DNA from: Alphaproteobacteria bacterium
GTDB taxonomy: Bacteria > Pseudomonadota > Alphaproteobacteria > UBA9655
Assembly (NCBI GenBank): GCA_019752515.1
Contig: JAIEMB010000016.1
Coordinates: forward strand, 1-64,000
Reading direction: 5' to 3'
Length of the DNA: 64,000 nucleotides
Shown here: positions 11,726-26,600 of the stretch, piece after piece
Position numbering within the stretch: the stretch's first letter is position 1
How the letters are laid out: each line of letters opens with the position of its first letter
Made by a program: the position numbers and the translations under genes
The notes under the pieces: generated by a model
What the model was told of the DNA's origin: nothing
The model's input: only the letters and a program-made list of their open reading frames with translations
Databases searched by the model: none

Positions 11726-12265
11726 CTAACCAGAATATTTTGATAAAAAGAGCGCTGAAAGTTTTGTATCTTTCAATTTACTTCCTCGGGACGAGCCAAA
11801 TTCAAAGGCGTAAGCATCTTTTAGACAGGAGCCAAAAATGCCTGCAATGGTTGATATAATACCAACCGCTTCTCCCGGCAAACTCATCCGAAAAAGGGTA
11901 ATCGTAATGAGACACGAAACCAACCCCAATGCAGCTGAAATAACCATAATATCCGCTCGCAAATTGCTTCGCCCTGCATTTGCTAAGGCAATATCCCTCA
12001 AGCGCGCACTGTCCCGATCTTTATATTCTGCCATTTCAAGCTCATAATTCATTTTCAAGATGGCCTCTTGAAATTGAAGAGCCAACTTAGGATCAGTCTT
12101 CAAAGCTTGAATAACATTTAGAGGGTCCTTTTCCCCCGTCAGCGAATGAGCAACTTCAACAACCTTATGAGCAACTTTCTCACTTTGCTCTCCCCCTAAC
12201 CAACGCGCAATGAATGGTGCAAATTCACTTAATGCATGGGCGAAAGGAAAAAGAGGAAAACTCAT
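11726..12265 (-). CDS. GTA-type holin with three membrane segments
   Basis: Predicted holin for release of phage or gene-transfer-agent-like particles (matches the GTA_holin_3TM pattern, PF11351). It has an N-terminal segment PLFPFAHALSEFAPFIARWLGG, a charged central helix rich in E/K/D with AEYKDRDSARLRDIA, then two hydrophobic segments (about residues 105-125 and 130-150). The ATG is preceded by GAGGGAGAG and overlaps the stop of the lysin gene by 4 nt, so the two are translationally coupled as a lysis pair at the 3' end of the phage cluster. Length (179 aa) fits the family. Confidence 0.75.
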   Translation of the reverse strand: MSFPLFPFAHALSEFAPFIARWLGGEQSEKVAHKVVEVAHSLTGEKDPLNVIQALKTDPKLALQFQEAILKMNYELEMAEYKDRDSARLRDIALANAGRSNLRADIMVISAALGLVSCLITITLFRMSLPGEAVGIISTIAGIFGSCLKDAYAFEFGSSRGSKLKDTKLSALFLSKYSG

Positions 12266-12690
12266 CTTGGCTCTCCCTCATCCAACTTATAAAAGATATG
12301 ATGTCCTAAACGGATTCTAAGTTTCTTGGCTTTAGCCCAATACGGCTTACAATAGGTTGCATGATAATGATCACTTTCACGTGTTAAATCTGGCCACAAT
12401 CCGGAAGCTGTTTTTTTAGCAATGGCTTGGGAAACTTTAAAAAGAGGGTCTTTTATCAAGTCTTCTTGTTGAATAAGAGTTCGATTGGGGTCGTTTACAT
12501 CCCAACAGGAAAACTGCTTTGGTTTAAAGCACACTTCCGTGATGGTCTTTCCGTATTTTCCTCCCCGCTTCCAACGATTAATGATCACATTCGCTACAGC
12601 AATGAGAGCTGCGGGTCCATACTTTGCAAATTCTCCTCGCGCTTCACCATAGATCGTACGGGCGAGGATATCGAGGTCATGTTCTGTCAT
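12262..12690 (-). CDS. SleB-family cell wall hydrolase (endolysin)
   Basis: Peptidoglycan hydrolase of the Hydrolase_2/SleB type (PF07486). The characteristic ARTIYGEARGE stretch lies at residues 10-20, with Glu16 the probable catalytic acid, followed by ALIAVANVIINR and CFKPKQFSCW. No signal peptide is visible, so it needs the adjacent holin to reach the wall. The gene overlaps its upstream neighbour (12687-13211) and the downstream holin by 4 nt each. Start supported by AAAGGAG. Full length (142 aa) for this family in phage and GTA clusters. Confidence 0.85.
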   Translation of the reverse strand: MTEHDLDILARTIYGEARGEFAKYGPAALIAVANVIINRWKRGGKYGKTITEVCFKPKQFSCWDVNDPNRTLIQQEDLIKDPLFKVSQAIAKKTASGLWPDLTRESDHYHATYCKPYWAKAKKLRIRLGHHIFYKLDEGEPR

Positions 12691-13211
12691 AAGTTATCTC
12701 CTTTCAAAAGACGTTGCCATGTTTTTCCATTAAAAAAGATAAGAGCTAGCCCTTCTTCTTCGAGGAGAAGAGCAAGCTTTCCCAAATTCTCTTCTCTAGG
12801 CAATGTCGCTTTTTCATAGAGTGGAAGAGTGTTTGAGGAAGGTTTAGGGAGGGAAAGAATGTCTTTCCATGCTCCCTCATCTTGCGTCCATGTCGTGCTC
12901 ACATGATCTCTGACACAACAATAGAGTGTATTTTCATATGTAACGAGGTCCAGTTTTTGGTATGGAATTTGAGATGTCCAAGATCCACAAGGGTTAAGGC
13001 TGGCTTTTGGCAAATAAAAGGTCCCAAAGTCACTTCCAAATGTCCCAATCAGAGTCATTTGATCATTCACAACTTGAATTTTTCCAATTCCCTCTCCCCG
13101 TTCAGGATGCTCTTCAAGATGAGTGAGACGTTCTTCAAGTTCTTTAAAATTCCCATCAATTTCGTCAGCAGAAAGGGGGGCCCCTTTAGTGGCACGATAA
13201 ATAATAGACAT
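12687..13211 (-). CDS. Phage tail-associated protein with a carbohydrate-binding-like module
   Basis: 174 aa; product not recognised with certainty. The N-terminus SADEIDGNFKELEERLTHLEEH is a short coiled coil typical of trimeric tail-fibre stems. Residues 77-118 (WTSQIPYQKLDLVTYENTLY, CVRDH and a later Trp) resemble CBM5/12-type modules: an aromatic start, a 'D.V.Y....Y.C...H' core, then W. The same module can be recognised in the 609-aa protein of this cluster. Strong AAGGAG ribosome site. Located just before the lysis genes, where tail fibre or host-recognition genes usually sit. Host-binding role is inference. Confidence 0.55.
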   Translation of the reverse strand: MSIIYRATKGAPLSADEIDGNFKELEERLTHLEEHPERGEGIGKIQVVNDQMTLIGTFGSDFGTFYLPKASLNPCGSWTSQIPYQKLDLVTYENTLYCCVRDHVSTTWTQDEGAWKDILSLPKPSSNTLPLYEKATLPREENLGKLALLLEEEGLALIFFNGKTWQRLLKGDNL

Positions 13212-13225
13212 ATGAGAACTCCTTT

Positions 13226-14095
13226 TTAGGGTTTGAAATAAAGATTTATAAAGTTTGGATGACCTGGAACAGGCTCACATTGGAAAGAACGAAATACAAT
13301 CTGACCCCATCCTGTTTCCACAACAACTTGCACGTAACCCGCTGCAATTGTCCCAGGTAAACTCAGATATTCTTCTTCACGTGGTGGAGAATAAAAGATA
13401 ACATCTTGATTAAAAATCGAACCCCCAAGAGGTGGCAATGTATGATTATCCTGCAGCGTAGAAGAACTATAAAGTCGAACGCGCGTTTGGGTTTGAACAG
13501 AAGTCAGAGCGTAATAAATTTGCTGAATATCACTAAGGGCAATCCCTTCTTTATAATACCCTCCATACCCTCGCAAAATCTGAGTATTCAGCTTGCCTGG
13601 TGGAGAGGAAAGGACTTGTCCTGTTCTTAAAGTTGTCGAGCGCTCTTGGTGATGTTGGGTTTCAATTTGAAATGGCTTGAGGTAAAGAGGTGTTGATATC
13701 ACCAATTTTCCCTCTGGCAAGTCTTTACCATAAAAAACAAAAGCCTCTCCTTTGAAAACTCCTTTACCCAACCCCAAATACTCTATAACAATTCCCTGAC
13801 ATTGTGACTTTTCAACATCCCACTCATATCCATAAGTAACAGCGTTTTCAGCATAAAGCTCTGTACTCTCAAGCGCTACATTTTCTGAGATGAGTTGAAT
13901 TTTTATTTTTTTATTTTCAATGGGAAGAGCGCTAAGAACACATCGTAAAATCAATGTTTCCGCAATTATTTGGGATTCTTGAAACAAATCGCATGGCGAA
14001 GGATGGAATATATCTAACACACCTTCTTCTTGATTAAGTTCAACGGAAGGAGGCTCATAACCCTGCGGAGAGGGCATGAAGGGTAAGATGCGCAT
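13226..14095 (-). CDS. Hypothetical protein of the phage/GTA-like cluster (289 aa)
   Basis: I do not recognise this protein. It has no membrane segment and no signal peptide, is rich in beta-prone sequence, and begins MRILPFMPSPQGYEPPSVEL. The start is supported by GAGG 8 nt upstream. It sits 14 nt upstream of the 174-aa tail-like gene, and after the 69-aa and 609-aa genes, on the same strand with short gaps, so a tail or baseplate role is likely from position only. Confidence 0.6.
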   Translation of the reverse strand: MRILPFMPSPQGYEPPSVELNQEEGVLDIFHPSPCDLFQESQIIAETLILRCVLSALPIENKKIKIQLISENVALESTELYAENAVTYGYEWDVEKSQCQGIVIEYLGLGKGVFKGEAFVFYGKDLPEGKLVISTPLYLKPFQIETQHHQERSTTLRTGQVLSSPPGKLNTQILRGYGGYYKEGIALSDIQQIYYALTSVQTQTRVRLYSSSTLQDNHTLPPLGGSIFNQDVIFYSPPREEEYLSLPGTIAAGYVQVVVETGWGQIVFRSFQCEPVPGHPNFINLYFKP

Positions 14096-14111: not shown

Positions 14112-14321
14112 TTATTTTTTTTCTCTTTGATAATCTCTCAGTTCTTCATATCTCTCTCTTAGCTTTAAAACCAACGTATCAATGTGTTCTATGATATGAG
14201 ATAGCTTTTTAAATTGAAACGCAATCATATCAAGTTCATCGATTATGGGAGCTAGTTTACTAATTTTTTCATCTAGGGCTTTTAAAGTTGGGCTTTTTGT
14301 GTTTAGGTTAGGGTCAGACAT
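14112..14321 (-). CDS. Small coiled-coil protein of the phage-like cluster (69 aa)
   Basis: Begins MSDPNLNTKSPTLKALDEKI; the ATG at 14321 is preferred over an upstream in-frame TTG because AGGAA lies 7 nt before it. The rest is one long charged helix with heptad-like leucine/isoleucine spacing (KLAPIIDELDMIAFQFKKLS, then LVLKLRERYEELRDYQREKK). No function is recognised; small coiled-coil proteins are common in tail modules as chaperones or spacers. Confidence 0.55.
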   Translation of the reverse strand: MSDPNLNTKSPTLKALDEKISKLAPIIDELDMIAFQFKKLSHIIEHIDTLVLKLRERYEELRDYQREKK

Positions 14322-14461
14322 AATCAATTCCTGTTGGTTGATTGTGTTTAGTGGCGGCAGATGGTACGGCTTTTGCCGCCACGTTTATAGGGAGAAAATG
14401 TTTTTTACATGAAGCAAATTTAATATTCTTTAATAAAAAATGATGAAGTTATGTGATATTG

Positions 14462-16291
14462 TCAAATTCTTTGTTTTTTCCTTAATCCACTCTTGACTTC
14501 CACATCAACAGGAGCACTCCATGAAGCTGCCATTTTAACTGTCATCTCATGGTCAAGTCTTTCTTTGGTTCTTAAATCCTTAAAAAACAATCGTAACCGC
14601 GTTGATTTTTGGGAGAGACCCTTTTTTAAAGCCGAGGGACTATGGTAATGAAGCATGCTTGCTTCTTGTTCAAGAGGTCCATTAATGAGCTCAATACCTC
14701 GTAAAAGAGAACCAAAATTATGACTTTCAGCAGGCCTTTGATCTTCATACGAGAAATACGTCAGTCCTGTGGAAGTTTTCCTGATCCCATTTTTGTGAAC
14801 CTGATAACCCTCTTCACAATATCCCTGAAAAGCATATGATGGTATTATTTCTTCCTCTACCCTCTCAACGTCTCCAACGCCAACGGAACAAAGTAATGTG
14901 ACGTTAACATAACGCTCACCTGTTTCTCCCTTAACGATTAAAGAATACTTCACAATTTTTCCTTTTACTTGGCCACCAGGCAGTCGAGGATCTGACAATG
15001 TTAGACACATATCTGTTGTCACATTTTTTAGGATATTCCAAGGTCCTTCGAAGGAAACCTCAAGGGAGCGTGCACTTTTTGCCAATTCCAATTTTGCTCT
15101 CTCCATAGCATGTTCACAAGCTTTATGGCCTCGCTCAGTGAGAAAAAAGGACGCACGTGCAGGATGGCCCAAAGGGGTGTGAAAAACCTTTTTAAAGAAC
15201 CACTTATCCTCCTCAAAGAACAAATCGGAAGTATGGTCTCTCTTGCATTTATAAATACTTTGCTGATAACAGACCTTAGCCCCTTCACGATAATAGGTTT
15301 CCGGACACCACGCATAAAGATGAGGTTCAGGATTAATATTTTGGAGAGTAAATTCCAGTTTCTTTATCTCTCCTTCTCCCGGTACAAGCGGTTGATAGGA
15401 TTGATAAAGAGAAAATGAGAGCGTCTCCTTTCGCTTTTGCTGATATTGCCATCCTACCCAAAGAATTGGCTTGAACCAGTGACGTTTCAGACGATAGCTC
15501 ATAGGTTGATCTCCCTCTTCATTTAATAAAAGAGGAGGTGAATAAGGGGGATAAAGTGCTGAGGAGGGCGTCACAGGCTTAAGTTCGCTTTTTATAACCC
15601 AAATGCCCGAGCGTCCTAACCGTTTTCCAGCTTCAGGCCACTTTTCTGTTAAGGCTTTTTTCGTGTAAGTGCTAAGTTTACGATTTGGGAAAGCCTTACC
15701 AATGGCCGGCCCGAGATTTGTAACCCCTTTCTCCGTCTGCACCCAATAAGCATTCACTTTTACGCTGCAACCATGAAGAGGATTTCTTACTTTTTTCATT
15801 CGAAGCGATTCTTGAAAATAATTATGATTTATCTCAAATGCTTCACCACACTCAAACCAATCGGACCAGGACAGTTTTCCCGTTCGTCTGTCACAATAGA
15901 GAGAGGCCGTTCGAGCACCTTGAATCTCATTTTCATCATTATGTTTTTCATTCTTTACCCACAAAGCATCCCAGTAGGGGGAAATCCTGCTTTCACTTTG
16001 CAAGCGGCTTATCTGTTGTGGAAAGTCGTTGGGCTTTGCAATCAGTTCAATGAGACTAAAGTTCTTTGCAAGCTTTAGAGGAACCCCACACAACGACCCT
16101 TTAAATATAATGTCTTGATTGTCTTCTTGAAGCGTAGCTTCTGTTCCCGTAGGGGGAAGGCGGGACCCTGCTTCAATGAGAAGTTTGGCTTTTGAAAAAC
16201 AATCTTCTTCTTGAGAAATTTCTAAATCAAAAATAGATATATTTTCTTTACTTTTAAGAATATAATGTTCCCATCTAAGATAAATATTCAT
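14462..16291 (-). CDS. Large phage tail/baseplate-like protein (609 aa)
   Basis: Not assignable to a named family by eye. ATG at 16291 is chosen over the ATG at 16306 because AGAAG lies in front of it. The N-terminal third reads like a tail hub or baseplate protein (beta-rich, DIIFKGSLCGVPLKL). Around 15186-15320 the protein has YYREGAKVCYQQSIYKCKRDH followed by W, matching the carbohydrate-binding-like module of the 174-aa protein. It is the first gene of the distal phage unit, and its start faces the divergent transporter gene. No tape-measure-like long helical protein is present anywhere in the cluster. Confidence 0.6.
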   Translation of the reverse strand: MNIYLRWEHYILKSKENISIFDLEISQEEDCFSKAKLLIEAGSRLPPTGTEATLQEDNQDIIFKGSLCGVPLKLAKNFSLIELIAKPNDFPQQISRLQSESRISPYWDALWVKNEKHNDENEIQGARTASLYCDRRTGKLSWSDWFECGEAFEINHNYFQESLRMKKVRNPLHGCSVKVNAYWVQTEKGVTNLGPAIGKAFPNRKLSTYTKKALTEKWPEAGKRLGRSGIWVIKSELKPVTPSSALYPPYSPPLLLNEEGDQPMSYRLKRHWFKPILWVGWQYQQKRKETLSFSLYQSYQPLVPGEGEIKKLEFTLQNINPEPHLYAWCPETYYREGAKVCYQQSIYKCKRDHTSDLFFEEDKWFFKKVFHTPLGHPARASFFLTERGHKACEHAMERAKLELAKSARSLEVSFEGPWNILKNVTTDMCLTLSDPRLPGGQVKGKIVKYSLIVKGETGERYVNVTLLCSVGVGDVERVEEEIIPSYAFQGYCEEGYQVHKNGIRKTSTGLTYFSYEDQRPAESHNFGSLLRGIELINGPLEQEASMLHYHSPSALKKGLSQKSTRLRLFFKDLRTKERLDHEMTVKMAASWSAPVDVEVKSGLRKKQRI

Positions 16292-16318
16292 TTTTTTTCT
16301 TCTCATAAAATAAAAGTG

Positions 16319-16347
16319 TTGACGAACCGAAAAAGCCTCTTTAGATC
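16319..16347 (+). promoter_or_regulatory. Possible sigma-70-like promoter for the EamA transporter
   Basis: TTGACG at 16319-16324 followed after 17 nt by TAGATC at 16342-16347, in the 77-92 nt gap between two divergent starts. The -35 is good, the -10 weak. Confidence 0.35.
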
Positions 16348-16383
16348 TAGTGACCTATTCATTTAAAGTGAGAGTATCGATAA

Positions 16384-17310
16384 GTGACATTTCAAATTTC
16401 ATGGTTTAATTCCAAAGGCTATATTCAGGGAATTTTCTGGATACTCCTGGCCTGTTTCATTAGTAACTCAAATGATATCTTGATAAAGCATGTTGGGAGT
16501 CGCTTATCAGGTGCGGAAGTTGCTTTCTTCCGTTTCTTCTTCAGTACACTTGTTCTCTTGCCTTTTATGGCCTTTCGCGGCAAAGCTGCTTTTGTCACTC
16601 ATTATCCGAAAGCCCAGTGCATCCGAGCCTTACTGCTTATGTTAGCCATGGCTCCTTGGTGCTATGGGGTTGCGGCTCTTCCCCTCACTCTTGCTACTAC
16701 TTTATCATTTACTGTGCCCTTTTTTGTCCTACCTTTAGCTAAAATCTTTCTAAAAGAGCATGTAGGATGGCAAAGATGGGCAGCAACTCTGTTTGGATTC
16801 ATGGGAATTCTTGTGGCGTTGCATCCGACAGGAAATACCTTTAACCCCATGGCTCTTGCCCTTGTGGCTTCAACGATCATGTTTGCAACCCTTGATATCA
16901 TCAATAAGAAGCTTTTAACAGAAGATGAAACTCTTCTTTCTATGTTGTTTTACTCAGCCCTCGGAACAGCAATTTTAGGGCTTATTCCTGCCATTTTAAC
17001 TTGGCAAACCCCTACCTTACAGGAGCTTTTCTACCTCCTGCTCTTAGGGGGTGGTGCTAGCCTCATTTTATTTTGCCTTCTCAAGGCATTTGCAGCAACA
17101 GAAGTCTCTGCGTTAGCCCCTTTCAAATACTTTGAACTTATCTTATCTGGAATCTTTGGGTTAATTGTCTTTCATGAATTCCCAACCGCAAGCACTCTTT
17201 TAGGGGCGGCTATCATTGTCCCCTCAACGCTTTACATTGCCGTTTATGAAACGAAGCAGCAACGACAGAGAGCTGTACGCGAAGAACTGGAATTGAAAAA
17301 AGCAGCCTGA
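16384..17310 (+). CDS. EamA/DMT-superfamily permease
   Basis: Inner-membrane transporter of the drug/metabolite type with ten hydrophobic segments in two EamA halves (308 aa, usual length). The first half includes LSGAEVAFFRFFFSTLVLLP, the second FKYFELILSGIFGLIVFHE, both typical of the family. GTG start. Related permeases in intracellular alphaproteobacteria import host metabolites such as S-adenosylmethionine; the substrate here cannot be read from sequence. It lies on the plus strand inside a minus-strand phage-like cluster, divergent from the 609-aa gene and convergent with the 171-aa gene, so it is an inserted cargo gene. Confidence 0.85.
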   Translation: MTFQISWFNSKGYIQGIFWILLACFISNSNDILIKHVGSRLSGAEVAFFRFFFSTLVLLPFMAFRGKAAFVTHYPKAQCIRALLLMLAMAPWCYGVAALPLTLATTLSFTVPFFVLPLAKIFLKEHVGWQRWAATLFGFMGILVALHPTGNTFNPMALALVASTIMFATLDIINKKLLTEDETLLSMLFYSALGTAILGLIPAILTWQTPTLQELFYLLLLGGGASLILFCLLKAFAATEVSALAPFKYFELILSGIFGLIVFHEFPTASTLLGAAIIVPSTLYIAVYETKQQRQRAVREELELKKAA

Positions 17311-17359
17311 TATGGTTAATTTACGTTCTGCAAAATACATATTCAGGACCTTAAAACAC

Positions 17360-17875
17360 TTATACTTCCTCTAACTCTAATTTCCATCCTACCGTAAGCC
17401 CCCATTCATCGGTTTCAAGATGATAATTCTTAACGATCATCATTAAACAGGGGTGATAGGTGATAAATCCTCCTGGAAAGTTGGGAGGTAGAAAAATCCA
17501 AAGCTCCTCTCTCCTTTCTATCGGCCAGACCTTCTTTGATGATTCGTATAAGCAAAGAGATAAGGCTTCCCTTTCAAGTTGAATTTTTTCCAGCCCTTGA
17601 GGAACACATTGTGTCATCTGTTGAATACATCTCACCTTAAGAACATCTCCAACCCAAAGACCGTCAAAAGCTGGAGGTGCCTTATCCTTACACCCTATGG
17701 TTGATTGAAATTTACGGTGCCCTTTGTGACTCACACAAACAAGGCTCCCATTTATCGTCCGGCGTAAAATCCCTTGAGAAATGGGAGTAAGTGTCTGTGT
17801 ACATTCCCGTGCAGTAAACGGGGAAATAACATTCCCTTTGCCCATGACCTCTATGATAAGATCCGTCTCCTTCAT
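17360..17875 (-). CDS. Phage tail-like protein of unknown class (171 aa)
   Basis: Start set at ATG 17875, which overlaps the DUF3168 stop as ATGA; a longer in-frame start at 17932 would overlap that gene by 61 nt. Beta-rich protein with 'ILRRTINGSLV' and 'DGLWVGDVLKVRC'. It occupies the place where GTA and HK97-like clusters encode the major tail (tube) protein, directly after DUF3168, so a tail-tube role is possible but rests on position alone. Last gene of the connector unit before the inserted transporter. Confidence 0.55.
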   Translation of the reverse strand: MKETDLIIEVMGKGNVISPFTARECTQTLTPISQGILRRTINGSLVCVSHKGHRKFQSTIGCKDKAPPAFDGLWVGDVLKVRCIQQMTQCVPQGLEKIQLEREALSLCLYESSKKVWPIERREELWIFLPPNFPGGFITYHPCLMMIVKNYHLETDEWGLTVGWKLELEEV

Positions 17876-18231
17876 CGGATGGCTCCAGAAAGACGCGCCT
17901 TTAAGCGAAACGTGTGAACGCGTGTTTGGCAATCATTTAAAAAACTCAGTGTACTTTCTATAATTTTTAAACTCACCTCTAAGGTCTCTGAAACATAGGA
18001 TTGGAGGGCGAGATCAACTCCTTTTACAAGTCGTAAAATTTCACTCGTTCCTGCATAACGGCTCCAAATTTTAACCGTTAAGGTCACCATTGTGGGGCCC
18101 CATGGCACACCTTGCAACACCATCTCAGGTTCAATCATAATATAAGGATAAGGCGTTTGAGGAGGTAACTGAAGGAATGCAGGACAAATATGCGCTAAAG
18201 ATTGAGTTAGGTCCCATAAAAGCTCATTCAT
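17872..18231 (-). CDS. DUF3168 tail completion/terminator protein
   Basis: Matches the DUF3168 family (PF11367; GTA gp8/gp17-like tail-completion proteins) with the usual pattern: 'TPYPYIMIEP', then 'GPTMVTLTVKIWSRYAG' and 'TRVHTFRLKARLSG'. The ATG at 18231 (MNELLWDL), with GGAG 8 nt upstream, is preferred to an in-frame TTG at 18246. Overlaps the head-tail adaptor gene by 8 nt and the 171-aa gene by 4 nt, so it is tightly coupled. Confidence 0.75.
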   Translation of the reverse strand: MNELLWDLTQSLAHICPAFLQLPPQTPYPYIMIEPEMVLQGVPWGPTMVTLTVKIWSRYAGTSEILRLVKGVDLALQSYVSETLEVSLKIIESTLSFLNDCQTRVHTFRLKARLSGAIR

Positions 18232-18607
18232 CTCTTGTCTCCACAACCGTCATAGATAAATATCGATTAAATTGGATAAGAAGGGGTGGGCTGGCTAAAA
18301 GGAGCTTTTTTCGCGAATGGCGCAAGTGCCATAAAAACATAGCCTTCGGCGGAAGCGTAATTCCAGCTCTGATGGTAACCCGGTAGCGCGCTAAAGGAAG
18401 GGAGGAGAGAAATCCTTCCGAAAATGCCGTTGGCCCCTTCACACCATCATCATGAAAACCATCCTTACCCATGAGGAGCCAAAGAGAAGCCCATAGTTGT
18501 GGGCCTTTTCTCCACTTTTCACGCCACCCTCCTGTTCCATCCATTTCTCGCGAGGAAAGAAAAAGAGTCAATGATTCTTTCAAATCTTGCGTAGTAATAT
18601 CTTTCAT
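18224..18607 (-). CDS. Phage head-tail adaptor (PF05521-like)
   Basis: 127 aa. The C-terminal part 'LARYRVTIRAGITLPPKAMF' and 'LSMTVVET' follow the head-tail joining protein pattern (RYRVTIR ... W ... V.E). Good ribosome site (AAGGAAAAGG). It lies 13 nt after the connector gene and overlaps DUF3168, the same order as in GTA and HK97-type genomes (connector, adaptor, tail completion). Confidence 0.7.
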   Translation of the reverse strand: MKDITTQDLKESLTLFLSSREMDGTGGWREKWRKGPQLWASLWLLMGKDGFHDDGVKGPTAFSEGFLSSLPLARYRVTIRAGITLPPKAMFLWHLRHSRKKLLLASPPLLIQFNRYLSMTVVETRDE

Positions 18608-18620
18608 GTTGTCCTTTTCC

Positions 18621-19139
18621 TTATCTTAAATGATGAGTTTTGTAAGGCCGCAAGAAGGATAAATCTGCTTTTTGATGGTCATAAAAAAAACGCGCCATCA
18701 TAAGTACAGCCATTTTCAAATCAGGAGGAAGGGCATCAGCCGTTTCCCCATATCCTGCCCAATAAACAAGAGTGAGCTCTTTCTCACAGACGTTTGAAGA
18801 AAGCAAAACGCGGTTGTCTTCAACCGTATAGGGAACTCCTATATCACCTGTTGTTACAACCTCCACCTCTAAAAGAGGAGGCTGAGGAAGGGTAACCTCA
18901 AGAAGTTTTCCTTCTCTTTTGACAAGAGGAGAACAAAGAGGATAGGGAGGTTTTATAGTCATCAACCATTGTTGTCTAATGAGAGACCGTCCTGTAACTG
19001 TCTCTATATGTCTCCTTGCTGCCCTTATAAGAGTGTTTAGAAAGTCGTTTTCTTGGTCCGAATTAATCCTTAAATAAAGTTTGGTTTCTTCTATTGTAAT
19101 AGGTTCTCGCAATGGAGGTATTTTTAGAAATAATTGCAT
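18621..19139 (-). CDS. Head-tail connector, gp6-like
   Basis: Matches phage connector proteins (PF05135/TIGR02215 type): N-terminal EPITIEETKLYLRINSDQE, DFLNTLIRAARRHIETVTGR, and later LPPDLKMAVLMMARFFYDH. 172 aa, complete. It seals the portal to the tail interface in the virion. Start supported by GAGAGG. First gene of the connector unit; its start lies 60-97 nt from the divergent small secreted gene. Confidence 0.82.
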   Translation of the reverse strand: MQLFLKIPPLREPITIEETKLYLRINSDQENDFLNTLIRAARRHIETVTGRSLIRQQWLMTIKPPYPLCSPLVKREGKLLEVTLPQPPLLEVEVVTTGDIGVPYTVEDNRVLLSSNVCEKELTLVYWAGYGETADALPPDLKMAVLMMARFFYDHQKADLSFLRPYKTHHLR

Positions 19140-19235
19140 ATAATCCTCTCAAAATTAACGTATTATTTATTATGTTGGCTACATAATTAAAGTATAAAGA
19201 TGGTGTTATACTTGTTTAAATTAGATAATGGTGTT

Positions 19236-19391
19236 ATGAAGTTTTATGTGTTGTTTGTGGTTCTTCTGGTCTCGCTTTTGAGTACTGCGTTTATTCCTTT
19301 TGAAAAGGCTTATGCAGGTGATAAAGGATATATTTTGCAGGAAACATATAATTGTTCGAGGCCAGAAGATTGTTTTCCAAGAATGCCATAA
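19236..19391 (+). CDS. Small exported peptide (51 aa) inside the phage cluster
   Basis: The ATG at 19236 gives a canonical signal peptide (MKFYVLFVVLLVSLLSTAFI, with a likely cut after AYA) and a mature part of about 25 residues containing two Cys and ending CFPRMP. An in-frame ATG at 19200 would add 12 residues; neither start has a clear ribosome site. Plus strand, divergent from the connector gene and convergent with the capsid gene. No family recognised. Confidence 0.5.
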   Translation: MKFYVLFVVLLVSLLSTAFIPFEKAYAGDKGYILQETYNCSRPEDCFPRMP

Positions 19392-19432
19392 TTAAAAAGT
19401 CGTTGTTTGAAGGTAGTTATTTAAAGGCGCTT

Positions 19433-19462
19433 CACCCCGCTCAACTGAACGGGGTGGTTTAG
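19433..19462. terminator. Hairpin between the small peptide gene and the capsid gene
   Basis: Stem CACCCCG (19433-19439) pairs with CGGGGTG (19450-19456) with a 10-nt loop and a T-rich tail on the plus strand. It lies between two convergent stops and can serve both directions. Confidence 0.55.
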
Positions 19463-19464
19463 TT

Positions 19465-20676
19465 TTAAGCTGCAAAATTCAAAACTTTTAAGGCTTCAAA
19501 ATTCAAAACATCTCCCCCCACGCGACGCGTTGTATAAAACTCCACATAAGGTTTAGAACTATAAGGATCTCTTAAAACACGAATGCCCGTTCTATCCACA
19601 ATTTGGTATCCTTCTTTAAAATTGCCAAACACAATTGATTTGGAAGCGACTCTTTGAGCCAAACCTGGCATATCGTCACACACAATCAAAGGATGGCCTA
19701 AGAGTGTAGGTGTGGGCATTCCTCCTAAAGGAGGTTGCCACACGTATTCATGACTTTCAGGGTCTTTTAGTTTGCGTAAGACACCTTGAGTTAAGCGTGA
19801 CATAAGCCAGATCGCACCAGAAATATAGGGTGGCTTTAAGGTATGAAAAAGATCAAGTAAGGTATCAGCACCTCTCCCCGGTCCAAAGTCACCATCAATG
19901 CCTGTCTTGAGTTCTTCAAGTTTTCCCCATTCCCAGCGTGCCTTTGCTACTGTTTCATATGCTAAAATTCCTTTGGGTTTATTATTGCCATCTCCTCGCA
20001 AAAAGGCTGTATTTTCCATCATGGCCATTTTCTGTGCTATTTTTTGTGAAAGCCAATCCTCTACATTAAGACTGGCGTCATCCAACAATTTTTGAGTCGC
20101 GCGTGGACGAGCATACATTTCATGAACAGGAATCCGTATTTTTGCAAGTTCAGGCGTTCTTGTTTCCGCCCTTTCTTGGGTTTCAGCAACCCACCCCACA
20201 TCAGCAGCATCTTTATCGATCAACATCTCCAAAGCTGAGCTCGAAATTTCTCGCACTGTTGCAAGACCTCGCATAACCGATCCTTCTTGTAAAGTTGAAT
20301 ACAAACGGTCATGAAGACCAGAAGGAACCAAATAACCGCCATCACGATCACTCGTCGTCGAAAGGCTCTTTCGTTCGTAATCATGCAATGGGGCATCAAG
20401 GCCTTTGCGAACGTAATCCATAAAGGCAGCTTTATGGGTACAAAATAATTCCGAGTCTGTTTCAACCTGGGGTCGACTCGCAAGTACATCAAACTGTTTA
20501 AGACGTTTTTCCGCTTGGTCCAAGCTTGTTTCAATGCGATCCATCCTTTCTTGAAGCAAAGGATCCACATAATTTTTTTTCTCCAGGGTCTTAAGACGCT
20601 CCTCATTAGCTCCTTTAAATTCTTCAAATGTTCGTGACAAATCATCCAAAGTTGTCTGAATATCATAGTTGTGCAT
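19465..20676 (-). CDS. HK97-family major capsid protein
   Basis: 403 aa, PF05065 type. Residues 1-70 are a coiled-coil scaffold/delta domain (DLSRTFEEFKGANEERLKTLEKK), removed by the prohead protease in this family. The mature shell begins near residue 100, with 'KSLSTTSDRDGGYLVPSGL', 'LRGDGNNKPKGIL', 'LMSRLTQGVLRKLKD' and 'GHPLIVCDDMPG' matching the HK97 fold. Complete and apparently intact, so the head could still assemble. Ribosome site GAGAGGATAG. Separated from the protease gene by an intrinsic terminator, suggesting its own promoter or read-through control. Confidence 0.93.
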   Translation of the reverse strand: MHNYDIQTTLDDLSRTFEEFKGANEERLKTLEKKNYVDPLLQERMDRIETSLDQAEKRLKQFDVLASRPQVETDSELFCTHKAAFMDYVRKGLDAPLHDYERKSLSTTSDRDGGYLVPSGLHDRLYSTLQEGSVMRGLATVREISSSALEMLIDKDAADVGWVAETQERAETRTPELAKIRIPVHEMYARPRATQKLLDDASLNVEDWLSQKIAQKMAMMENTAFLRGDGNNKPKGILAYETVAKARWEWGKLEELKTGIDGDFGPGRGADTLLDLFHTLKPPYISGAIWLMSRLTQGVLRKLKDPESHEYVWQPPLGGMPTPTLLGHPLIVCDDMPGLAQRVASKSIVFGNFKEGYQIVDRTGIRVLRDPYSSKPYVEFYTTRRVGGDVLNFEALKVLNFAA

Positions 20677-20700
20677 TCTATCCTCTCTTGTTGTTACATT

Positions 20701-20725
20701 AAAAAAGCCACCCTTAAGGTGGCTT
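20701..20725 (-). terminator. Intrinsic terminator between prohead protease and capsid genes
   Basis: On the minus strand AAGCCACC pairs perfectly with GGTGGCTT (8 bp, 5-nt loop), followed by TTTTTT. Unusual place: between two genes normally co-transcribed. Confidence 0.75.
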
Positions 20726-20748
20726 ATATTCCCAGAAGGGGAACGACG

Positions 20749-21216
20749 TTAAGTTGTTTTTATCTGTGAAACCAGCGCCTTACCATTTGCACCAAATGTC
20801 ACAAGGGAAATATCTATAAGGTCAATATCCAAAAGAATACGCGCTTTTTGATCTTTTTCTTCCACAGCCTTCAGGGTTCGAAATCCAATGGAAAGGCCAT
20901 CAAGAGCTCCTTCTTTAAGAAGGAGATAAGCTTCATCCGCTTTAACCACACCTAAGGCTAGACGCCCTTCCACATAAAGTCCCTGCGTATCCTCTAAAAG
21001 ATGTGTCCAAACCCCAATGGGTTGCTTCACATCATGCTGCCATAGCATTTTTGGTGTTTTGCCCATGAGACGCCATGCTCTCAAAGATTTAGAAAAAGCC
21101 CCTTGCGCCACCCGATCTCTCTGATGATCCAGAACATTAAAAAAGCTTGCGTATCCTTTTACGATCCCTCTTTCAGGTTGCTTAAGCTGATCACTTCGTT
21201 TTATAGTTGTTTTCAT
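20749..21216 (-). CDS. HK97-family prohead protease
   Basis: 155 aa, PF04586/U35 type. Cleaves the scaffold domain of the capsid protein during head maturation. His61 (MLWQHD) and Ser109 (DGLSIGF) fit the catalytic pair, and the opening 'VKGYASFFNVLDHQRDRV' is family typical. No truncation visible. Its start (21216) is only 30 nt from the start of the divergent 127-aa exported protein gene, so the two must share a promoter region. The intrinsic terminator at 20701-20725 follows it. Confidence 0.9.
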   Translation of the reverse strand: MKTTIKRSDQLKQPERGIVKGYASFFNVLDHQRDRVAQGAFSKSLRAWRLMGKTPKMLWQHDVKQPIGVWTHLLEDTQGLYVEGRLALGVVKADEAYLLLKEGALDGLSIGFRTLKAVEEKDQKARILLDIDLIDISLVTFGANGKALVSQIKTT

Positions 21217-21246
21217 AATAAGATCCTACTGAAAGGAAAAAATGTA

Positions 21247-21630
21247 ATGAAGTATGGGCTTACAATAACAGGGACAGTTCTTGGTTTTTTAATGACCTCT
21301 TCAGGAGTCATAAGTGTGAATCCTAAACAGGATGTGTGTCCCACAGGATATACATCCTGTCCTGGGTATGATTGCATTGTAATTGGCTCACCTTGCCCTC
21401 CACATAACATTGTTCATTTCACCCCGGCACCCAATACGACCTATGCTCTTCCAAGAGGAATGGGCTTTTTCTGTGGGACGACAGAAAACCCCCAAGCACC
21501 ACAAAAAATTACCGTTCCAGGTGGCGCACCCTCTGAATATTGGATATGCCCATCTTCTTCAGAGCCTGCACCTCAATCAAAACCTTCGCAAGAGAACGGA
21601 TCACATGAAAAACTTCACTTAGCAGAGTAA
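21247..21630 (+). CDS. Cys/Pro-rich exported protein (127 aa) inside the phage cluster
   Basis: Start chosen at ATG 21247 (MKYGLTITGTVLGFLMTSSG) because it gives a signal peptide and has AAGG about 10 nt upstream; the frame stays open upstream into the protease gene. The mature protein has six Cys (CPTGYTSCPGYDC, then CPP, FFCGT, WICPS), which suggests three disulfides, and a Pro/Ser/Glu-rich tail. No family recognised. Divergent from the prohead protease and followed by another small exported gene. Confidence 0.65.
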   Translation: MKYGLTITGTVLGFLMTSSGVISVNPKQDVCPTGYTSCPGYDCIVIGSPCPPHNIVHFTPAPNTTYALPRGMGFFCGTTENPQAPQKITVPGGAPSEYWICPSSSEPAPQSKPSQENGSHEKLHLAE

Positions 21631-21783
21631 GGCAGGCTATATGATATCTTATTGTTTTTCCTCAGTATCTCCTTATTTGTCAAAAAAACGATCAATATTA
21701 ATAAAATATTATGAATTTTTGATTAGAATAAAAGGTAGAAGAAGAATAAGAAAAAGACCATTTTTAACATAAAGGAGGAAACG

Positions 21784-22008
21784 ATGAAAACTCTAACAAC
21801 TTTTGCCTTTGTAGTCATGGTGGCTATTAGCATGAGTACTGCTGCAAGTGCTTATGGTGGCCTCAGAATGGAAGGCGTCCAAAATTTCATGTATTATTTT
21901 GGAGCTCCATGCCCAACACCATGTGCAATGGTACCTGCACCTTGTGCTGTGCCTTGTGCCATGCCTTGTCCAATACCATGTCCTGAAATTCATGGGATCT
22001 TCATGTAA
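21784..22008 (+). CDS. Exported peptide with Cys-Pro repeats (74 aa)
   Basis: Strong ribosome site (AAAGGAGGAAACG directly before the ATG), so translation is probably efficient. Signal peptide MKTLTTFAFVVMVAISMS...ASA, then a mature peptide of about 50 aa. Its core APCPTPCAMVPAPC then AVPCAMPCPIPC has six Cys each preceded by Pro, a metal-binding or cross-linked coat-like pattern. No known family. Plus strand, convergent with the portal gene (14 nt between stops). Confidence 0.75.
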   Translation: MKTLTTFAFVVMVAISMSTAASAYGGLRMEGVQNFMYYFGAPCPTPCAMVPAPCAVPCAMPCPIPCPEIHGIFM

Positions 22009-22020
22009 AGGCAACGATAA

Positions 22021-22059
22021 GCTATTCTAACCGGTCCCCATTGGGGATCGGAGAATAGC
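22021..22059. other. Long inverted repeat over the portal stop codon
   Basis: GCTATTCT (22021-22028) pairs with AGAATAGC (22052-22059), and inside it CCGGTCCCCA pairs with TGGGGATCGG with one mismatch. It covers the last codons of the portal gene and follows the convergent small gene stop by 12 nt. No good T tract directly follows in either direction. Confidence 0.6.
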
Positions 22060-23203
22060 CTATCAACGCTCTTTTTTCATTCACTGTTAAAAAACTGGCT
22101 TTTTCAAGTTTAGACCATAGGGTTTCACGCTTAGGAGCCAGTGCAGGAATTGAATCCGTGTCGTAATCAAGGTAAAGCCCTTCTTCAAAAAAGGTCCCCA
22201 GCCATTTAGTCAACTCCCCTTTTATCATCTCTAAATGAGGAAGAATAGTATCTTCCCAAAGATGATAACGCGCTTCTTTATAATTCGCAAAGGTGGCATC
22301 CCCTGGAACCCCCACAAGCATGGGCGGCACACCATACACTTGTGCAATCTCTCGCGCAGATAAGTATTTTCCTTCTATAAAATCAAGGTCTTTTGGTGAC
22401 AACCCCATCTCTTTCCATTCAAAATCACCTTCAATGACCATGATTCGTCCTGCGTTCTGCATGCCTTCATAAACAGCTCTTATATCGTCGCGAAGGCGGT
22501 GACGCTGTTCATCTGTTAGAGATTCATATCCTGAATCTGATTTAAAGAGAAGAGCTCCAGAAGGTCGCCCCCCATTTTGAAGAAGAGAGAGGTTATGTCC
22601 CGCAACCGCATTGTGTTGATCAATCGCATGAGCTGCTGCTTCAATAGGACTCATTCCATACCAGTCATGAAGAGGATTAAAAGATTTTATATGTAAAATC
22701 CGGGAGCGACCATTTACAGGTTCAACCGGAATTCTCACGGACCGCCCTCCTAATGTATAATCAAAAGCCTCAGGAATTCCCGTTGATCCTGGAACAATCC
22801 TTACACGATCTGGCCTCAAAAGATAAAGTTCCAAAGGCTCTCTTTCGGGTATAACTGCTTCTATGTACACGTTTCCTGCCAAAAGGAAATAAGCCGTAAG
22901 AGCCTCCATAAAACGGGAAAGACCTTGCTGAGGATTAGGATGATAGAGGAGGGTTAAGAGAGGGTGGGTGTCAAGACGCGAATCGCCCTTATAAAGTTTC
23001 CAGGATACACTCCCAATACCACGGGCTATCAAAGAAACACACCGATAAACAATAATGTTTTTCTGGTATCCCTCTTCTGCCAAACTCTCATACTGACGGG
23101 GCGTCCACAGAGGTTGATGAGCACTTCCGGTTACGAGTAAAGGAGTTGTAGCACTGGCTTTCTTTTCAGGAAGTCCTAAAAATCGACAAATCCATTGATG
23201 CAT
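22022..23203 (-). CDS. HK97-family portal protein
   Basis: 393 aa, PF04860 type: ring through which DNA enters the capsid. Motifs include 'NIIVYRCVSLIARGIGSVSW', 'FMEALTAYFLLAGNVYIEAV', 'YGMSPIEAAAHAIDQHNA' and 'YGVPPMLVGVPGDATFANY', all typical. Full length. Ribosome site GGAGGATACTC. It is the most upstream phage gene seen; no terminase gene is found beyond it, where the plus-strand Aas gene lies instead. Confidence 0.92.
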   Translation of the reverse strand: MHQWICRFLGLPEKKASATTPLLVTGSAHQPLWTPRQYESLAEEGYQKNIIVYRCVSLIARGIGSVSWKLYKGDSRLDTHPLLTLLYHPNPQQGLSRFMEALTAYFLLAGNVYIEAVIPEREPLELYLLRPDRVRIVPGSTGIPEAFDYTLGGRSVRIPVEPVNGRSRILHIKSFNPLHDWYGMSPIEAAAHAIDQHNAVAGHNLSLLQNGGRPSGALLFKSDSGYESLTDEQRHRLRDDIRAVYEGMQNAGRIMVIEGDFEWKEMGLSPKDLDFIEGKYLSAREIAQVYGVPPMLVGVPGDATFANYKEARYHLWEDTILPHLEMIKGELTKWLGTFFEEGLYLDYDTDSIPALAPKRETLWSKLEKASFLTVNEKRALIGYSPIPNGDRLE

Positions 23204-23245
23204 GAGTATCCTCCATCCATAATTAACATAAAAACAAAAGTATTA

Positions 23246-23275
23246 ATTAAAAATTAATTTTTAATACGATATAAT
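23246..23275. promoter_or_regulatory. 20-bp perfect AT palindrome beside a consensus -10 in a divergent gap
   Basis: ATTAAAAATTAATTTTTAAT at 23246-23265 is a perfect palindrome. A TATAAT lies at 23270-23275, with TTAAAA at 23247-23252 as the -35, so the palindrome overlaps a plausible plus-strand promoter for the 54-aa exported gene. It could be an operator shared with the portal gene; AT-rich palindromes also arise by chance. Confidence 0.4.
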
Positions 23276-23320
23276 TATTTAATAATATAATAATATGGTT
23301 TCTTTAATATTGAGGTTAAA

Positions 23321-23485
23321 ATGCGTATTTTCTATTTTATGGCTATAGTGGGCCTTATTTTAGCTGGGTCATCCTTTGATTCCTCAGCTAGTTTTACCCA
23401 AACACAGGGGTTGTCTAAAGCATCCCCATCAGGGATATATTTTGTAGGTAAGGTTCCAGCAAAACCAGTTGGACCACATCCCTAA
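23321..23485 (+). CDS. Small exported peptide (54 aa) upstream of the portal gene
   Basis: ATG at 23321 with GAGG 6 nt upstream; TAA at 23483-23485. Signal peptide MRIFYFMAIVGLILAGSSFD..., likely cut near SSAS, leaving a peptide of about 30 residues ending KVPAKPVGPHP, Pro-rich and without Cys. Divergent from the portal gene (117-nt gap). Same plan as the other small plus-strand genes in the cluster. No family recognised. Confidence 0.6.
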   Translation: MRIFYFMAIVGLILAGSSFDSSASFTQTQGLSKASPSGIYFVGKVPAKPVGPHP

Positions 23486-23671: not shown

Positions 23672-26600
23672 ATGAACCATCTCACTAAGAATAAGCCCTT
23701 CTGGGCTCTTTTTGGGACACAGTTTTTGGGTGCCTTTAATGATAATTTTTTTAGAACCGCCCTTGTTACCCTCGTTACCTATCATTTAGTTATCTATTCA
23801 GAAACTGTGAAATCTCTTTTTGTTTCAGCAGCTTTTGGGCTTTTCATGCTTCCCTTCTTTGTGTTCTCACCACTCGCAGGACAACTTGCGGATCGCTATG
23901 ACAAGGCAAAAATTATCCGGTGGGTAAAAGCTTCCGAGATCCTTATTGTGAGTTTAAGTTCCTATGGTTTCATTCACAAAAACCCTTATTTTTTATTGGC
24001 CGCCCTTTTTTGTATGGGTATTCACTCAACTTTCTTTGGACCTGCGAAGTATAGCATTTTACCAGATCTCCTTCCTCCCGAACGACTTTTAAAGGGAAAT
24101 GGCTACATTGAGGCCGGCACTTTTCTCGCCATTATGTTAGGAACGCTTACGGGAGCCCTCATGATTCATTGGAATGTCTCTCTTTTTATTGTCAGCTTTC
24201 AGTTGCTTGTTGTTTCTCTCCTCGGGTTTCTCATGAGCTGGCAAATTCCTTCAGCACCACAGGCTGCACCTCGGCTTAAAATCCATCTCTCCTGGACAAG
24301 GGAGATGAAGCATCTCTTCCGTTATGCGCGAAAAGATGTGCGTATTTTCAGGACTGTTATTGGTATTTCTTGGTTTTGGTTGGTAGGAGCCGTTCTTTTA
24401 GCCCAGCTTCCTCCTCTTGCAAAAGGCATTTTACAGGTTGAAGAGGGTGTTTTTATCTTCCTTCTTTTCCTCTTCACCATTGGAATCGGAGCTGGCTCCA
24501 TTTTCTGCAACTGGCTCTTTAAGGGAGAAATTACAACGAAACATGTGCCTTTACTGGCTTTCTTTATGATTCCCTTTTTATTTGATATTGCAAGTTTTAA
24601 CGCTCCTTTAGCAACTACGCCAACATCGCTTTACTCTTTTTTGTTTTCTTTTCAAGGCACTAGATTAACAGCGGATATCATTAGCCTCTCTTTTATAGGA
24701 GGTCTCTTTATTGTTCCTTTATATGCTTTTATTCAGTCTCATGTCACCCCCAGCCAACGTTCTCAAATTATTGCTTTCAATAATATTGTGAATGCGGGCT
24801 TCATGGTCTTTGCAAGTTTTACTTCGTTTTGCCTTCTAAGCCTTAATGTCTCCATCCCTATCTTAATTTTATTAACAGGTATCGGACAAGTAATCGTTAC
24901 ACTCTATGTCGTTCGAATTCTTCCCGATGATGTTTTGAGGAACTTTCTTTACACGCTTTTACGCCTTCTTTTTCGATTGGAAGTCCATGGGCTTGAAAAT
25001 TATAAGAAATCAGGTAGAAGAACGATCTTTATTGCTAATCACACGTCTTATCTCGATGCCCTTCTTTTGTCAGCTATCTTGCCCGAAAAACCCGTGTTCG
25101 CCATAAATCTCTTTACAGCTCAAAAATGGTGGGTAAAACCTTTTCTCGTTCTTGCAAAGGTTTTTCCCATTGATCCTCTCTATCCTTACGCACTCAGAGA
25201 CGTTATTGAGGAAGCTAAAAAAGGTCATAAAGTTCTCATTTTTCCTGAAGGACGCATCACCCTTACGGGAAGCCTCATGAAAATTTACGAAGGACCTGGA
25301 ATGGTTGCTGAGAAAGCAGAAGCATCTCTTCTGCCCATTCGGATAGAAGGGGCTCAATATACTTTTTTCTCTCTCCTCAGAGGGCAACTTCCTCGCAAGT
25401 TATTCCCTAAAATCACTGTCTCTATTCTCTCTCCCGTAACACTTTCTGTGGAGGCTTCTCTTGTTGGAAGGGCCCGTCGCCGTGCTCTTAGTGAACAACT
25501 CTATGATGTTATGGCAAACATGATTTTTGAAACAAGTCCTATCAGAAAAACTCTTTTTTCAGCCTTAGTAGAAAGCCGATATGTTCATGGCTCTTCTTCA
25601 AAGGTAATAGAAGATGTCACACGTAAGATACTCTCCTATAGAGAGCTTTTTCTTAAGATTTTTACCCTATCCCGCCGCATGGCTCGAAAGACCCAACCTC
25701 ATGAGATAGTGGGCCTGATGTTACCCAATACAAACAGCCTTATTATTAGCTTTTGGGCTCTTCAAGCTATTGGCCGTGTTCCGGCGCTCTTAAACTATAC
25801 AAGTGGATCTGCAGCGCTTTTAATGACCTGCCAACTCTCCCGTGTCCGAAAAGTCTATACTTCTCGTCTCTTCATTGAAAAAGCCCGTCTTCAAGACGCT
25901 ATTGAGCTTATGAAACACAATAAAATTCATCTCTATTTCCTTGAGGATGAAGCGAAAAAAATTAGATTTACAGACAAAATATGGGGTATATTTGGGAGTC
26001 TCTTTCCGAAATGGCTTTATAAGACAAATCAAACACCTGAAGACCAAAGTGTCATCCTTTTTACTTCAGGTTCAGAGGATACGCCGAAAGGCGTTGTTTT
26101 AAGCCACCGCAATCTTCTTGCCAATTGTTACCAATTAGCCGCTGTTGTTGATTTCAACAGCTTGGATAAGGTCTTAAATGTATTGCCCATTTTCCATGCC
26201 TTTGGTTTAACGGCAGGAATGCTCTTACCTCTCCTCTCTGGTATTCAAACGTTTCACTACGTATCTCCCCTTCATTACCGTGCTGTTGCAGAATTAATTT
26301 ACGATACCAATGCAACAATTCTATTTGGGACAGATACATTTTTATTCGGCTATGGGCGAGTGGCCCATCCTTATGACTTTCATACTATACGTTATGTCTT
26401 CGCAGGAGCCGAAAAGTTAAAAGCCGAAACAAGTCAGCTATGGTTTACTAAATTTGGCATAAGACTGTTTGAGGGATACGGAACCACTGAAACAAGTCCC
26501 GTTCTCTCTGTTAACACAACAATGCACTATAAGGCCGGTACGGTTGGGCGATTTTTACCTAGCATCAATTATCGTCTTGAATCCATGGAGGGTATAGCAG

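Follow-up and report, generated by a model that had tools for sequence, protein, structure and literature searches.

In RcGTA, the gene transfer agent (GTA) of Rhodobacter capsulatus, the gp27-like fold is split between the hub and the megatron protein, and the tube is filled by a tape measure protein (Bardy et al. 2020, PMC7296036). GTA genes have also been described in Orientia and other Rickettsiales (PMC10732058), and in diplonemid endosymbionts reportedly by George et al. 2022 (cited in PMC11909080 and PMC9953437). In the Rickettsiales, Paracaedibacterales and Pelagibacterales sampled by Kogay et al., no RcGTA-like clusters were found (PMC6821227), which fits a divergent type such as the one analysed here. 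The subject of the present analysis is a head-tail gene cluster on contig JAIEMB010000016.1 of an alphaproteobacterium of the lineage UBA9655 (assembly GCA_019752515.1), studied in a window of 64,000 nucleotides (nt), by which the whole stretch of analysed DNA is meant. Its minus-strand genes run in the order portal, protease, capsid, neck, tail and lysis, and are interrupted by five plus-strand genes. The locus is judged likely to be a divergent GTA-like cluster whose gaps are occupied by old host genes under separate control.

Homology to RcGTA head-tail proteins was found for the capsid (Rcc01687, 1e-77) and the adaptor (Rcc01688, 3.8e-6), for which the RcGTA proteins are the best solved relatives; the other parts were recognised by fold or family. 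The gene order is also that of RcGTA, with portal, protease, capsid, adaptor, stopper, tail terminator, tube protein, hub and hydrolase. Unlike in RcGTA, the gene for the large terminase (TerL) is located at another locus, no tape measure was recognised in the cluster, one tube-fold gene is present instead of separate tail-tube and distal-tail genes, the gp27-like fold is contained in a single protein of 609 amino acids (aa) instead of being split between hub and megatron, and antiparallel genes occupy the gaps.

George et al. 2022 reportedly found GTA clusters in Rickettsiales and Holosporales endosymbionts, including those of diplonemids, in which the heads were kept and the tails lost. The endosymbiont and Orientia clusters resemble the present one in that RcGTA-related head genes occur in reduced, host-associated alphaproteobacteria, partly scattered and under purifying selection; they differ in that a tail, with tube-fold protein and hub, is present here. 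No description of embedded EamA or exported-protein genes was found for those clusters, and no joint mention of EamA and gene transfer agents was found in the literature search.

Genes in the gaps of the cluster

The original prediction had described a domesticated-looking particle cluster, divided into units and with genuine exported-protein genes in its gaps, and in this it was borne out. All five plus-strand open reading frames (ORFs) were present (Table 1), and the phage identities of the minus-strand genes agreed with Pfam and PHROG matches. Better start codons for the hub and the tube-fold gene were taken from homologue alignments. The four divergent gene pairs have the predicted spacing of 30-120 nt, with start codons 92 nt apart for EamA and hub (corrected hub start at 16291; 77 nt if the ORF is taken to begin at 16306), 96 nt for sp51 and connector, 30 nt for sp127 and protease, and 117 nt for sp54 and portal. 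A signal-peptide-like N terminus, called by simple hydrophobicity rules, was found on four of the five products, and the remaining one, the first, is an EamA transporter. Two products carry six Cys residues each, as had been noted (sp74 and sp127); sp51 has two and sp54 none. When the whole window was scanned with a simple signal-peptide rule, only sp74 and sp54 were returned, and the scan was too strict for an estimate of the background.

The genomes used for comparison were drafts, mostly metagenome-assembled genomes (MAGs). The small genes were kept in the same gaps of relatives, with the exception of sp54. Since the same genes were found antiparallel in the same gaps in relatives with capsid identities of 69-78%, the arrangement is more than chance. 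The cluster of a Holosporales MAG (L014) has the same gene order.

By profile search (alignment A6), sp74 was found in 15 of 15 genus genomes and in 0 of 2 other genera of the family, with one site per genome except for G001, which has two in tandem. Where the contigs allow, all sites are in the portal-protease gap (in G009 beside the protease at a contig end), and none was found by profile elsewhere in the 15 genomes. The ratio of nonsynonymous to synonymous substitutions (dN/dS) was 0.12-0.31 in close pairs, which marks sp74 as a real, constrained gene that evolves faster than its neighbours. It is a new family of small exported Cys/Pro-rich proteins with a dedicated promoter box; no known family was matched by sp74, sp51 or sp127.

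The sp127 family (A10) was detected in 4 of the 16 family genomes, exclusively in the portal/protease gap and with two copies in the sister genus G015; it is missing from most genus members. Homologues of sp51 are antiparallel in the same gap in L003 and L004. Short exported ORFs with a KG(Y) motif in the capsid/connector gap of L010, L016 and L051 are likely relatives of sp51, and a different exported family is present in that gap in L007, L008 and L009. Both the sp127 and the sp51 family recur in the same gaps of sister genera. For the tiny capsid/connector-gap proteins, dN/dS was 0.33-0.72, based on about 50 codons and few pairs. No homologue of sp54 was detected in relatives.

Serial cargo insertion, which had been offered as an explanation, is contradicted as a recent process by the presence of EamA in 13 families, of sp74 in 15 of 15 genus genomes, and of the sp127 and sp51 families in sister genera. 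Moron-like insertion into a decaying prophage would agree with the genome-specific sp54, with a HipA-like kinase gene that only four relatives have in their capsid/connector gap, and with a broken portal gene in G008. As an account of the locus it is very improbable, given that four of the five genes belong to old families with fixed places and that the particle genes are under purifying selection. Phage morons are similar in that they, too, stand antiparallel between the transcription units of a phage and have a promoter of their own; they are variable prophage cargo, whereas the places observed here are conserved across the genus and across families in a vertically inherited cluster. The HipA-like kinase gene (PF07804) is antiparallel in L007:2848-4047, L009:11226-12425, L011:7694-8899 and L047:16165-17364. 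In G008, a relative with a 1.2-Mb genome, the cluster order is also permuted, and a hub fragment is located upstream of the portal.

EamA transporter gene

In 22 of the 28 loci that could be read (30 fetched), from 13 families, the 171-aa tube gene has an antiparallel EamA gene as its neighbour, usually within a few hundred bases. In four genomes, the cluster copies share 44-69% identity with the query, and paralogues reach 34% at most. When 385 genomes across the class were searched, 20 of the 22 top EamA scores came from genomes carrying the 171-aa gene; in the other two, G149 and G228, the EamA gene is located among non-phage genes. In the two f19 genomes, the 171-aa gene is followed directly by the hub, without EamA in between. 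Because f19, G149 and G228 depart from it, the tie between EamA and the tube gene is strong but not obligatory. The dN/dS of EamA was 0.05-0.07 in close pairs. Comparison of EamA with PDB sequences gave no informative match. In a distant relative, four exported Sel1-type repeat proteins are interspersed among tube gene, EamA and hub (L015:13036-17684).

Promoters and transcription units

Alignment of the region upstream of sp74 revealed a conserved AT-rich element of 17 bp with surroundings that are not conserved. The element is followed by a fixed distance of 11 nt and TANANT, and this predicted box is located 52-60 nt before the start codon. It was present in all 14 genus genomes scanned, in 10 of them exactly and in the rest with 1-2 mismatches. 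Among the matches listed for this genome, the only zero-mismatch site of the combined pattern is that of sp74. In relatives, most of the strong copies located outside the cluster stand before other genes for small exported proteins, many of them Cys-rich (G009:C137, G013:C53, G011:C46, G007:C8 and two in tandem on G008:C2). Some sites with 1-2 mismatches are not located before such genes, e.g. on G010:C102, G012:C9 and G001:C24, and matches with three mismatches are probably mostly due to chance, as a reversed-pattern control gave similar results in several genomes. On G008:C2, at approximately 10.7-11.2 kb (L182), a tandem pair of small exported genes outside the cluster stands under an sp74-type box; this pair may help to define the sp74-box regulon.

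Across the genus, the EamA-hub intergenic region keeps a promoter that resembles TTGACG-N17-TAAATG and is directed towards EamA, as read by eye from the alignment and backed by conserved GTCAAC k-mers. EamA has its own predicted sigma-70-like promoter. The start codons of sp127 and protease are 24-29 nt apart in two relatives as well, and a two-way promoter between these genes is implausible because 24-30 nt are too short. Apart from A/T runs, comparison of k-mers revealed no motif common to several gaps within a genome. Full CtrA sites (TTAA-N7-TTAA) were considered and rejected, as they are not enriched in the window; within the gap regions they are confined to the stretch before the connector gene in four relatives and to that before the portal gene in this genome. 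Generic sigma-70 promoter matches were at chance level (17 found versus 16 expected), and terminator-like sites were about twice as frequent as by chance (14 versus 7.6). A terminator after the protease gene had been predicted, and a minus-strand terminator-like hairpin was detected there. A further hairpin with a T-run between the stop codons of capsid and sp51 (approximately 19430-19460) was seen by eye and is not on the scanner list. The cluster is probably transcribed in several units.

The original prediction also held that each divergent pair shares a promoter. This is unlikely for EamA, sp74 and sp127 in view of the separate EamA promoter, the sp74 box, the 30-nt gap and the lack of a shared motif. 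Co-regulation of the exported and particle genes, also proposed, is compatible with the data, and nothing was found in its support.

These results bear on the possibility that EamA and the exported proteins are working GTA parts which are co-expressed with the particle and serve in release, producer protection, as a recipient receptor or in uptake, or in action on a eukaryotic host. This possibility, regarded as rather unlikely, would suit the restriction of the sp74 and sp127 families to GTA gaps, the adjacency of EamA to the tube gene in 13 families, and the small exported Cys-containing proteins encoded in the portal/protease gap, on the other strand, of the distant L015. It is opposed by the gaps sharing no motif, the sp74 box marking small exported genes outside the cluster too, the short distance between sp127 and protease, the two genomes with the top-scoring EamA orthologue at non-phage loci, and the absence of sp127 from most genus members.

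Terminase, inheritance and selection

The portal was found in 15 of 15 genus genomes searched. TerL, which in an RcGTA-type cluster is located within the head-tail genes, was found on another contig (G000:C4:1857-3137, L065) beside pal, tolB and other chromosomal genes; of the 15 genus genomes, 14 have it away from the cluster. TerL adjoins the same M14-type peptidase gene in 11 of 14 loci; this gene was not found within 1.5 kb TerL flanks of G008, G009 and G012. Among the TerL loci compared, pal adjoins TerL only in this genome. Portal and TerL distances were correlated (r=0.67, 12 genomes, 0 of 2000 permutations). Particle genes had dN/dS values of 0.04-0.30 in close pairs, which indicates purifying selection. 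Vertical inheritance at a conserved locus under purifying selection is thereby indicated.

A functional prophage coding for exported proteins that serve its lysogen would account for the head, neck, tail hub and lysis genes. This explanation is scarcely credible next to the separate TerL and the conservation of the locus in the genus. An integrase or a phage-type lysogeny repressor was not recognised in the cluster or the 20 flanking ORFs scanned, nor were replication genes in the cluster or nearby ORFs; the temperate-prophage arrangement, with integrase and lysogeny control next to structural genes, was hence not found. A scan of IMG/VR, which uses short exact peptide patterns and gives a weak negative, returned capsids of at most 45% identity, and the loci fetched had no match to EamA or the exported genes.

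Taken together, the RcGTA-like capsid and adaptor, the TerL pattern, the distance correlation, the dN/dS values, the lack of an integrase and the IMG/VR scan argue for a cluster that is probably a vertically inherited, domesticated, GTA-like element.

Particle genes

The capsid matched the RcGTA capsid in PDB far better than the next unrelated chain (1e-40). The structure model of the 171-aa protein matched tail tube and baseplate tube proteins with a best Z of 8.8 (RcGTA tail tube, Z 7.1); these values are modest on their own, and nearly all top rows were tail or tube proteins. Its profile was found in 37 of 385 alphaproteobacterial genomes. The hub model, in which only the hub domains are trusted (mean predicted local distance difference test score, pLDDT, 68.9), matched the pyocin R2 hub with Z 17.4 over 264 aligned residues at a root-mean-square deviation of 3.4. 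Three further minus-strand ORFs of 71, 289 and 174 aa lie between the hub and the wall hydrolase. The 179-aa membrane protein is a candidate holin on the basis of its position and sequence character. A tape measure was not recognised between tail terminator and hub, nor a separate distal tail protein or a megatron in the cluster; the remaining genome was not searched for any of them.

The lack of a recognised tape measure and the separate TerL would also suit a cluster that serves a purpose other than DNA transfer, with its tail parts being lost and its capsids used for delivery to a host or made as tailless heads; the retention of heads and loss of tails reported for relatives in endosymbiont lineages would agree with this. 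The neck, the tube-fold protein, the conserved full gp27/VgrG-like hub and the hydrolase argue instead for a working delivery tail, and such another purpose is considered unlikely.

Table 1. Features of the GTA-like cluster and of its embedded genes (window coordinates)
Feature	Position	Strand	Basis or remark
Holin candidate, 179-aa membrane protein	11726..12265	-	phrog_1544 (function unknown) 7.1e-23
Cell-wall hydrolase (SleB-like), 142 aa	12262..12690	-	PF07486 1.8e-18; phrog_938 endolysin 2.6e-20
174-aa protein with CBM_5_12-like domain, possible receptor-binding part	12687..13211	-	PF02839 3.6e-6
289-aa conserved protein	13226..14095	-	26-58% identical in relatives; no Pfam, PHROG or NCBIfam match
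71-aa coiled-coil-like ORF	14112..14327	-	no recognised family
Baseplate hub, 609 aa, gp27/gp44/VgrG-like, chitin-binding-like insert	14462..16291	-	structure model; CBM_5_12 weak
EamA-family transporter, 308 aa	16384..17310	+	two PF00892 stretches, 1.7e-24; antiparallel
Tail-tube/distal-tail-fold protein, 171 aa	17360..17875	-	AlphaFold pLDDT 80.8; fold matches
Tail terminator, 124 aa	17872..18246	-	phrog_176 6.8e-6
Stopper/head completion protein, 127 aa	18224..18607	-	profile weakly matches putative head-tail adaptor 6.6e-4 and SPP1 gp16 0.0078
Head-tail adaptor (connector), 172 aa	18621..19139	-	PF05135 1.6e-9; profile matches RcGTA adaptor
sp51, exported 51-aa protein	19236..19391	+	capsid/connector gap
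HK97-fold major capsid protein, 403 aa	19465..20676	-	PF05065 3.3e-75; RcGTA capsid top PDB match
Terminator-like hairpin after protease gene	20705..20725	-	terminator scan
Prohead protease, 155 aa	20749..21216	-	PF04586 1.5e-29
sp127, exported Cys-containing protein	21247..21630	+	family A10; portal/protease gap
sp74 promoter box TATTAATAAAATATTAT-N11-TAGAAT	21696..21729	+	predicted; genus pattern TATTAATAAAATATTAT-N11-TANANT
sp74, exported Cys/Pro-rich 74-aa protein	21784..22008	+	E-x-QNFYYYFG ... C-C-P motif; profile A6; portal/protease gap
Portal, 393 aa	22022..23203	-	PF04860 1.9e-87; phrog_12 5.6e-81; all genus genomes
sp54, exported 54-aa ORF upstream of portal	23321..23485	+	private to this genome

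Flanking genes

A repeat-rich, autotransporter-like protein of 2776 aa is encoded directly downstream of the putative holin (window 3290-11620). On the other side, the portal is adjoined by a gene for an 1128-aa fusion of a major facilitator superfamily (MFS) transporter, an acyltransferase and an AMP-binding ligase (23672-27058), which stays beside the cluster in several relatives. At a distance of 20 kb from the cluster, a ComEC-like competence protein (PF03772) is encoded at 43003-45066. GTA recipients in Rhodobacter need DNA uptake genes.

Discussion

The following mechanism is proposed. The particle set would consist of portal, protease, HK97 capsid, adaptor, stopper, tail terminator, tube-fold protein, hub, wall hydrolase and putative holin, with TerL at a distance. 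Transcription in several units would leave gaps between them that can hold other genes, and old host genes would have settled there on the opposite strand. Across 13 families of the class, the settled gene would be that of an EamA exporter, placed between the tube and hub genes. In the family of this genome, genes for small proteins exported by Sec, most of them with Cys residues, would occupy the gap between portal and protease and that between capsid and connector. The particle would be made and would package host DNA. The embedded genes would act independently of it, the exporter on small molecules and the exported proteins in the envelope or extracellularly. They may have stayed because their places are stable and because genes and cluster are both under selection.

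The positions of the embedded genes are conserved, the genes are under selection, and EamA and sp74 have separate promoter signatures. Tenancy is the simplest account of these fixed positions, own promoters and constraint. The exported gene that lends itself to testing, sp74, looks like a long-settled tenant, not a proven particle component.

Several points weigh against this interpretation. The families of sp74 and sp127 were found only in the cluster, a restriction that would be unnecessary for a purely independent host gene, and the fact that EamA has adjoined the tube gene for a very long time could point to a functional tie. Tenancy leaves both the exclusivity of sp74 and sp127 and the EamA-tube tie over 13 families unexplained; that a functional tie lies behind them is possible, at a low probability. 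The correlation of portal distances was made with TerL only. The G008 portal (L050:408-1567) contains two in-frame stops, so the cluster can decay. Particle production and transfer of host DNA are inferred here from the genes. If the genes are partners instead, the exporter and the secreted Cys-rich proteins might assist a divergent short-tailed GTA under a switch of their own, making the cell envelope, or a eukaryotic host, ready for the release or uptake of particles; this is considered improbable.

With a compact tail and a full gp27/VgrG-like hub, kept in relatives from at least 13 families, the cluster stands apart from the GTA-like clusters of host-associated alphaproteobacteria, which are reported to retain their heads and lose their tails. 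Its gaps have harboured the same foreign genes over a very long period, which raises the question of whether these are tenants or partners of the particle.

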